From Candidatus Terraquivivens yellowstonensis (GTDB taxonomy: Archaea > Thermoproteota > Nitrososphaeria_A > Caldarchaeales > Wolframiiraptoraceae), in the NCBI GenBank assembly GCA_023539445.1, contig JAKCEW010000005.1:6123-70122 (forward strand): a DNA stretch of 64,000 nt, given 5' to 3'. This document shows, one piece after another, positions 51,477 through 52,624 of this stretch. The position numbers were made by a program, and so were the translations under genes. The notes below the pieces were generated by a model, which was not told the origin of the DNA, ran no database searches, and saw nothing but the letters and a program-made list of their open reading frames with translations. Every line of letters begins with the position of its first letter. Positions within the stretch are counted from its first letter, which is position 1.

Positions 51477-52348
51477 GCCGTCTCCCTCTCCACTCTTATC
51501 GCATTCCTTGGACATTCCGTCGTGCACACTAGGCAGCCTTTGCAATGGTCGTAGTTTATGACAGGGTAACCCCGCTCATCCAAGGAGATGCACGCCTCAG
51601 GACAGTAGATGTAGCAGATGCTGCATGCTGTACAAAGATTCTTATCTACGATCGGTTTGAATACCCTCCAACTACCCGTTTTCCTTAATGCTGTGTTTCC
51701 TACAGAGAGTAAGTCCGGAATACCCTTCTCACCTAAGTACCGAACCTCTACCACTTTGTGTAACGGCTTGTGGTTTAACCCACGCAATCCTACAGACTCT
51801 GTACTTAGATAGCATTCTTTGGCCAATTGGACATTCTTCTCTATTATATCGGTTTCGAGTCCTAGCTCTGCGAGCTCTTCTTCCACAGCGCCGAGCGTTG
51901 ATTGGAGGCTTATCAATCCAGAGAGTTTGCAGGCAACGGCACCCATGGCGGCGCTTAGTATGTCCTTACCTACGTACTTCAACGCTAGGCCTGTTAAGTC
52001 GCCGTAGATTACGCGTATCTTCTTCAACTGTTCAATCGATACTTCTTTCGGCGAGTTGACGAAAAGAACAGAATCCTCCGCCATGCCCTCAAGCGGTTTG
52101 ACAGTCATGTCAAATAATAACGAAGGCGTCGTGACAAGCACGTAACTTGGATTAAATATATGCCCGCGCTCCATTATCGGAGCGTCGGATAACCTGACGA
52201 AGGTTGTTATAGGCGCCCCACGCCTTTCAGCACCATATATCGCAAAGTCTTGGGCAAAAAACCCCTCAAAGAAGGCGGCCTTACTGAGAATACGGCCAGC
52301 AGTTTTTATCCCTTGACCGCCCCTTCCATGAAACCTAAACCTTACGAT
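51467..52348 (-). CDS. porG: 2-oxoacid:ferredoxin oxidoreductase, fused gamma-delta subunit; no canonical start codon
   Basis: About 293 aa. The gamma part begins VRFRFHGRGGQGIKTAGR and continues FFAQDFAIYGAERRGAP without a break; the C-terminal delta part has two [4Fe-4S] motifs (CTACSICYIYCPEAC and CKGCLVCTTECP). The frame is closed by TGA just 5' of the gamma start, and no ATG, GTG or TTG occurs before the conserved segment. An ATC at 52348 is 9 nt behind a perfect GAGGTGA and would give the usual N-terminal length. A GTG at 52361 is in another frame. TATA box TTTATATC near 52388. Confidence 0.85.
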   Translation of the reverse strand: MVRFRFHGRGGQGIKTAGRILSKAAFFEGFFAQDFAIYGAERRGAPITTFVRLSDAPIMERGHIFNPSYVLVTTPSLLFDMTVKPLEGMAEDSVLFVNSPKEVSIEQLKKIRVIYGDLTGLALKYVGKDILSAAMGAVACKLSGLISLQSTLGAVEEELAELGLETDIIEKNVQLAKECYLSTESVGLRGLNHKPLHKVVEVRYLGEKGIPDLLSVGNTALRKTGSWRVFKPIVDKNLCTACSICYIYCPEACISLDERGYPVINYDHCKGCLVCTTECPRNAIRVERETAWS

Positions 52349-52385
52349 AAAGGGGCTTCACCTCGTCATAAATTATGATGACCGA

Positions 52386-52394: not shown

Positions 52395-52451
52395 GTTGCA
52401 CGAATTTGGCGCTTGGTAAACTTTTTAACGTCCTACCAACGTTCCAAGTAT

Positions 52452-52512
52452 GGGGCGCTGATGAGCACCGCCTTTCTGAGTCGTGATGACGCGGGAGTAC
52501 CACTGAAGCCCC
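52452..52512 (+). ncRNA. C/D box sRNA 1
   Basis: Box C TGATGA (52459-52464), guide GCACCGCCTTT, D' CTGA (52476-52479), spacer GTC, C' GTGATGA (52483-52489), guide CGCGGGAGTACCA, D CTGA (52503-52506). Terminal stem GGGGC (52452-52456)/GCCCC (52508-52512). A box A-like CTTTTTAA (52421-52428) is centred 26-27 nt upstream of the 5' end. By the N+5 rule the targets would be A in UGGUACUCCCGCG (D) and G in AAAGGCGGUGC (D'). Confidence 0.88.
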
Positions 52513-52570
52513 CAAACATCTAAGGTAAGAAAGAAACTGTTAAATTCCCCAAAGCTGCAAGCACTTCATA

Positions 52571-52624
52571 GCGATGATGAGTCTGACCAGTCTGAAGTGA
52601 TGATCTGGATCTTGAGCTCTGAGC
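52571..52624 (+). ncRNA. C/D box sRNA 2
   Basis: Box C ATGATGA (52574-52580), guide GTCTGACCAGT, D' CTGA (52592-52595), a single-nt spacer, C' GTGATGA (52597-52603), guide TCTGGATCTTGAGCT, D CTGA (52619-52622). GC/GC ends pair. TGTTAAATT (52539-52546) is centred about 27 nt upstream. The very short D'-C' spacer is unusual. N+5 targets would be C in AGCUCAAGAUCCAGA and G in ACUGGUCAGAC. Confidence 0.82.

Follow-up and report, generated by a model that had tools for sequence, protein, structure and literature searches.

Two neighbouring C/D box sRNA genes of Candidatus Terraquivivens yellowstonensis and a possible two-part recognition of pre-tRNAs by one of them

Introduction

Position 34 of tRNA-Leu(CAA), Leu(UAA), Met and Trp is served by C/D box sRNAs in Pyrococcus (PMC7994747). 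At position 34, 2'-O-methylation has been measured in tRNA-Gln(UUG) of S. acidocaldarius, in tRNA-Gln(CUG) of P. furiosus and in one archaeal tRNA-Leu, and tRNAs with introns are frequently targeted by the C/D machinery (PMC7668247). In archaeal pre-tRNA-Trp the C/D RNA is encoded by the intron, according to the accounts of D'Orval 2001 given in PMC4090602 and PMC7994747. When an archaeal sRNA is a double guide, its two targets usually lie less than 100 nt apart (PMC4644070, PMC7994747). In yeast, methylation by box C/D snoRNAs is aided by extra base-pairing through accessory guides (PMC5389607).

The sRNA at the centre of this study, sR2, is like the Pyrococcus position-34 sRNAs in being a C/D sRNA with one guide that places N+5 on the wobble base of tRNA-Leu. 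It differs from them in that it fits up to five isoacceptors, that its duplex can enter the intron and that the complement of its second guide is a motif in introns. With the pre-tRNA-Trp system, as described in the sources above, it shares a link between a tRNA intron, a C/D RNP and a methylated position 34; there, however, the guide RNA is the intron, whereas sR2 would be a separate sRNA that docks on the intron. sR2 does not reside in an intron but is intergenic with its own promoter-like box, and it also departs from the Pyrobaculum type with an orphan second guide (PMC7994747), in that its D' guide complements intron motifs. Like the yeast accessory guides, it has a second pairing stretch apart from the active guide, but in yeast the targets are rRNA and the accessory element lies beside the guide, while in archaeal sR2 the targets would be pre-tRNA introns and the element is the D' guide itself.

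Two probably separate sRNA genes in one intergenic region

The window, by which is meant the whole 64-kb stretch of DNA analysed (C35:6123-70122), belongs to an archaeal genome of 1.16 Mb. A first-pass annotation had placed two tandem C/D box sRNA genes in it, each with its own TATA box, and this was borne out: the C, D', C' and D boxes follow each other in order with guides of 11-15 nt, all at the positions then given, and an AT-rich box A precedes each RNA (Table 1). When both strands of the window were scanned with a strict C-D'-C'-D pattern, exactly two matches were obtained, sR1 and sR2, while 60 Markov-shuffled windows gave 0. The locus is intergenic, with a 2-oxoacid:ferredoxin oxidoreductase operon (minus strand) on one side and an iron alcohol dehydrogenase gene (plus strand) on the other.

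Table 1. Features of the sR1 and sR2 genes (window coordinates)
Feature	Position	Strand	Remarks
TATA-like box A of sR1, CTTTTTAA	52421..52428	+	~27 nt before RNA start; conserved in congeners
sR1, C/D box sRNA	52452..52512	+	5-bp terminal stem GGGGC/GCCCC (52452-52456 / 52508-52512); stem and boxes conserved in G001, G002, G005
sR1 C box CTGATGA	52458-52464	+	
sR1 D' guide GCACCGCCTTT, 11 nt	52465..52475	+	16S target GAAGGCGGT; N+5 = G731 (E. coli numbering)
sR1 D' box CTGA	52476-52479	+	followed by spacer GTC
sR1 C' box GTGATGA	52483-52489	+	
sR1 D guide CGCGGGAGTACCA, 13 nt	52490..52502	+	16S target GGTACTCCCG; N+5 = A676 (E. coli numbering)
sR1 D box CTGA	52503-52506	+	
TATA-like box A of sR2, TTAAATT	52540..52546	+	~27 nt upstream of RNA
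sR2, C/D box sRNA	52571..52624	+	conserved across Caldarchaeales
sR2 C box ATGATGA	52574-52580	+	
sR2 D' guide GTCTGACCAGT, 11 nt	52581..52591	+	complementary to intronic CTGGTCAGA of pre-tRNA-Gln(UUG), Gln(CUG), Ser(CGA)
sR2 D' box CTGA	52592-52595	+	
sR2 D'-C' spacer, 1 nt (A)	52596..52596	+	
sR2 C' box GTGATGA	52597-52603	+	
sR2 D guide TCTGGATCTTGAGCT, 15 nt	52604..52618	+	N+5 opposite position 34 of Leu(CAA), Leu(UAA), Ser(CGA); of Gln with a mismatch
sR2 D box CTGA	52619-52622	+	

Among congeners, the conserved blocks are the two RNAs and their TATA boxes (for sR2, box A reads GTTAAAT in 4/6 and GTTTAT in 2/6), and the distance between the RNAs varies from 114 to 382 nt across the four genomes that have both. 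From this follows that sR1 and sR2 are most likely separate genes. In G003 and G004 no sR1 was found adjoining sR2.

At gathering score no Rfam family matches the sR1/sR2 locus, and the sole Rfam match in the window is a tRNA-Cys. Archaeal C/D families are patchily covered by Rfam, and an Rfam match is not a defining feature of them. The sequence features that do define the class are seen in both RNAs: ordered boxes with guides of about 10-15 nt, a terminal stem closing the C/D kink-turn (the 5 bp earlier noted for sR1, and 2 bp with compensatory changes in sR2), complementarity across N+5 to 16S rRNA for sR1 and to C34 of tRNA-Leu for the D guide of sR2, and conservation in relatives. By every sequence criterion tested, sR2 is thus a C/D box sRNA. 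The first-pass annotation had proposed a search of guide complements with the N+5 rule, and had named guides lacking any rRNA or tRNA complement, together with a lack of conservation, as grounds for giving it up; matches were found for guides of both RNAs, and both RNAs are conserved.

sR1 as a double guide of 16S rRNA

The D guide of sR1 forms 10 contiguous Watson-Crick pairs with its 16S site, and the D' guide pairs with a site 55 nt further downstream through AAGGCGGT plus one G-U pair, i.e., 8 Watson-Crick pairs and one G-U. Judged by these matches, sR1 is an ordinary archaeal double guide with two nearby 16S sites and predicted methylation at A676 and G731; it resembles the described double-guide 16S C/D sRNAs, with two targets within 100 nt, and shows no substantive difference from them (PMC4644070). 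The first base of its C box is a C and no purine. The D' guide ends in TTT at 52473-52475, where three congeners have TT. With the extra T, which may be an assembly error, the predicted 16S target would be G731 instead of C732.

Architecture and conservation of sR2

A search of 61 genomes showed sR2 to be present across the order Caldarchaeales, and a pattern scan of species genomes returned 34 stretches; together they gave 40 distinct sequences, in which guides and boxes are conserved. Beyond the genus of the window, loci with sR2 occur in Wolframiiraptor, Geocrenenecus, Caldarchaeum, Pelearchaeum and Calditenuaceae (Caldarchaeales/Aigarchaeota). The D' guide is among the best-conserved parts. 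In the window the terminal stem has 2 bp only (GC/GC); pair 1 is formed in 37, and pair 2 in 35, of the 38 distinct sequences that could be scored, and the pair types include C-G, G-C and A-T, i.e., the changes are compensatory.

The spacer of 1 nt between D' and C' had been pointed out as shorter than usual. Its length stands, but it is no oddity of the window's copy, since spacers of about 0-3 nt are found in most relatives. One genus has about 10 nt: in Geocrenenecus-like genomes (L025, L028, L029, L105, L128) a small hairpin is possible in the spacer, e.g., CCGCTAACGG. An sR2-like RNA with an unusual D box region was seen in the Bathyarchaeota-labelled MAG RSWS8 and in another archaeal MAG (L134, L119), which could reflect mis-binning or a wider spread.

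The D guide of sR2 and tRNA position 34

The D guide GGGATCTTGAGC is complementary to GCTCAAG followed directly by ATCCC. The first of these covers the anticodon loop of tRNA-Leu(CAA) together with its flank, and the second is how the intron of this tRNA begins in many relatives. With an intron-bearing pre-tRNA-Leu(CAA) the duplex has 12 bp and N+5 falls on C34. tRNA-Leu(CAA) and Leu(UAA) are intronless in the genus of the window, where the D guide pairs over 9 bp, a mismatch and 2 bp. The window genome holds no perfect complement of the D guide other than sR2 itself. As a candidate rRNA target, the best 23S match (9 bp, with a mismatch near D') was unconvincing.

The matches of the D guide to other tRNAs are weaker than that to Leu(CAA). 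In Leu(UAA) there is a G-U pair at position 34. Ser(CGA) is matched through CTCGAGATC with one G-U pair and the last three bases intronic; this longer match is due to the junction of anticodon loop and intron, which reads CTCGAG followed by ATC in 33/33 of the Ser(CGA) precursors listed for the order. For Gln(UUG) and Gln(CUG) the match covers 11 positions, with a single mismatch, U-U at position 35, beside a G-U pair at position 36, which makes Gln the weakest of the D targets.

The D' guide of sR2 and an intron motif

The D' guide GTCTGACCAG complements CTGGTCAGA. This motif is intronic in the precursors of tRNA-Ser(CGA), Gln(UUG) and Gln(CUG), and some lineages also have it in a Leu(UAA) intron. 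The introns concerned occupy two different arms of the tRNA, and that of Gln places the motif on the 5' side of the anticodon. When tRNA genes were first searched for CTGGYYAGA, many of the matches in close relatives were intronic (Ser(CGA), Leu(UAA) and the D-loop of Gln). Since that search selected for the motif, it was repeated with patterns built on exon sequence only, e.g., anticodon and T-arm, and the motif or a close variant was then found in 28/33 Ser(CGA) introns and in 45/46 Gln D-loop introns; the Leu(UAA) rows are partly motif-selected and are excluded as a frequency. Some Leu(UAA) introns that do not start with ATCC carry the motif, whereas those starting with ATC(C) are without it, and so is the intron of Leu(CAA), the tRNA with the best D pairing. 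In L154 (G018) and L155 (G014), tRNA-Leu(UAA) has no anticodon-loop intron but a D-loop intron with CTGGTCAGA.

The own D' guide has a mean pairing score of 8.0 over 71 pairs, compared with 5.2 for shuffled guides (highest mean 6.6); in one or more of the shuffled sets a score of 8 was reached in up to 23/71 pairs (mean 1.4). In the window genome, with intron limits set by eye, the introns of Gln(UUG), Gln(CUG) and Ser(CGA) alone score at least 7.5, and the next of the 16 introns scores 5.5. The pairing there amounts to 11 bp in Gln(UUG) (9 Watson-Crick and 2 G-U), 8 in Ser(CGA) and 8 in Gln(CUG). Both tRNA-Gln genes of this genome (L160, L161; G000 C26, C14), which the Rfam tRNA model missed, have two introns each, in the D-loop and in the anticodon loop. 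The D-loop of elongator tRNA-Met was rejected as a D' target; a good match was confined to G003/G004, and in the window genome there is an A-C mismatch.

Outside the order, the exon-based patterns return Ser(CGA) and Gln precursors that have no CTGGTCAGA; one of them, in G049, carries CTGGCCTGA and resembles family f2, which is considered below. In unconstrained folding the motif is not clearly more exposed than average.

Guide and intron bases in different families

The fifth base of the motif is T in 69/69 scored introns outside family f2, and the guide position that matches it is A in every sR2 read from families f1 and f4. In f2, where all guides read have G, the intron base is C in 12/14 cases across Ser, Gln(UUG) and Gln(CUG). 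For about half of these introns the guide base was taken from the family and not from a guide read in that genome. A G-U pair remains available to the two exceptions. The association between guide base and intron base has a Fisher p of 1e-12, which overstates independence, because the change from A to G in the guide was probably a single event in one family.

These changes bear on the possibility that the motif serves an internal structure of the intron, for example as part of the inner helix at the bulge-helix-bulge splice site (in Ser, GATC/GGTC), its match to the guide being fortuitous. Indeed, GAUCA pairs with UGGUC in the folds of some Ser precursors (intron start GATCA), and in the Gln D-loop GGCC is a potential partner of GGTC. 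In f2, however, GATC is kept while GGTC has become GGCC, a change that breaks an A-U pair but preserves the match to the guide; the Leu(UAA) introns of G011 and G019 retain the motif with no evident partner, and the flanks CT..AGA are left unexplained by such a helix. A purely structural origin is therefore highly improbable.

In Thermoproteales, introns are known to transpose from tRNA gene to tRNA gene. This counts for another explanation, in which sR2 is a plain single guide that acts on position 34 of tRNA-Leu, with an orphan D' guide, and the motif is common because introns have spread. A precedent is given by tRNA-targeting Pyrobaculum sRNAs, whose second guide is reported to have no target (PMC7994747). 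This explanation is unlikely in view of three observations: few parts of sR2 are as well conserved as the D' guide, the similarity between introns appears, by eye, to be limited to the motif, and guide and intron bases have changed together in one family.

Family f3 has a divergent D' guide, CTCTAGCCAG, and a degenerate D' box, AATGA. The compensatory sequence that this guide predicts, CTGGCTAGA, was not found in f3 introns and occurs only in sR2, and the motif is missing from Ser(CGA). The pattern of a degenerate box and an absent Ser(CGA) motif looks like loss.

A model for two-part recognition of pre-tRNAs

The reading that we consider quite likely is that sR2 works on pre-tRNAs, the D guide directing methylation of N34 and the D' guide docking on the intron before splicing. 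In tRNA-Leu(CAA) the D guide would base-pair with the anticodon loop and, where there is an intron, with its first bases, and fibrillarin would then methylate position 34 at its 2'-OH. With poorer pairing, the D guide would also serve Leu(UAA), Ser(CGA) and, probably, the two Gln tRNAs, and the methylated position 34 measured in tRNA-Gln of S. acidocaldarius and P. furiosus (PMC7668247) speaks for the model. In precursors of Ser(CGA), of both Gln and of some Leu(UAA), the D' guide would pair with CTGGTCAGA in the intron and act as an anchor, which holds the D guide at position 34 as long as splicing has not occurred. Architecture, conservation, complementarity and covariation are seen in the sequences, as is the specificity among window-genome introns; that sR2 is transcribed and assembled into an RNP, that the pairings actually form, and that N34 is methylated, before splicing, are inferences.

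For the D' duplex, N+5 would be a G inside the intron. Methylation of a base in an intron that is to be discarded would be pointless, and anchoring fits better. Anchoring is also consistent with the absence of the motif where D pairing is best, as in the intron of Leu(CAA), and in those Leu(UAA) introns that begin with ATC(C). The position of the motif in Gln counts against the model, since the RNP would have to accept its two sites in either order. The poor D pairing of Gln, the failure to find CTGGCTAGA in f3 introns, the intronless tRNA-Leu(CAA) and Leu(UAA) of the window's genus, the folds in which the motif is not clearly more open than average and the high scores of some shuffled guides are likewise less favourable to it. 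The short spacer between D' and C' might make the D' half weak in catalysis, so that it docks rather than methylates.

It may also be considered whether sR2 is mainly a chaperone of pre-tRNAs, whose guides open the pairing between anticodon loop and intron and delay or order splicing, with methylation as a secondary matter. Anticodon loop and 5' splice site are both covered by the D-guide duplex, which should exclude the bulge-helix-bulge form and speaks for such a role, but intact C/D and C'/D' boxes and an N+5 exactly on wobble position 34 favour methylation and make a predominant chaperone role very unlikely.

To our knowledge, archaeal tRNA introns are mostly without a known role. The name orphan is given to many sRNA guides for want of a match in mature rRNA or tRNA. 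If docking by sR2 is true, the introns of several immature tRNAs gain a job, and it is explained how one guide can serve several tRNAs with differing anticodon loops; the locus also suggests that partners of orphan guides be sought in the introns of precursors. More generally, it is reasonably probable that a single sRNA can recognize its substrate in two parts, that introns are kept for the sake of wobble-base methylation, and that some orphan guides are intron anchors. What is plausibly new, as far as sequences can tell, is a second guide with a credible partner in the introns of its own substrates; we have not found such a partner described, and the open-access literature searched gave no report of an sRNA docking on an intron.

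The start of the neighbouring oxidoreductase gene

The adjacent oxidoreductase gamma/delta gene (51467 to ~52355, minus strand) has no in-frame ATG, GTG or TTG upstream of its conserved N-terminus. At 52340-52384 of the window, on the minus strand, a Shine-Dalgarno-like GAGGTGA, with an in-frame TGA inside it, is followed by AGC CCC TTT ATC GTA, and G005 (L003) shows this arrangement too. A non-standard start codon or a frameshift is possible.
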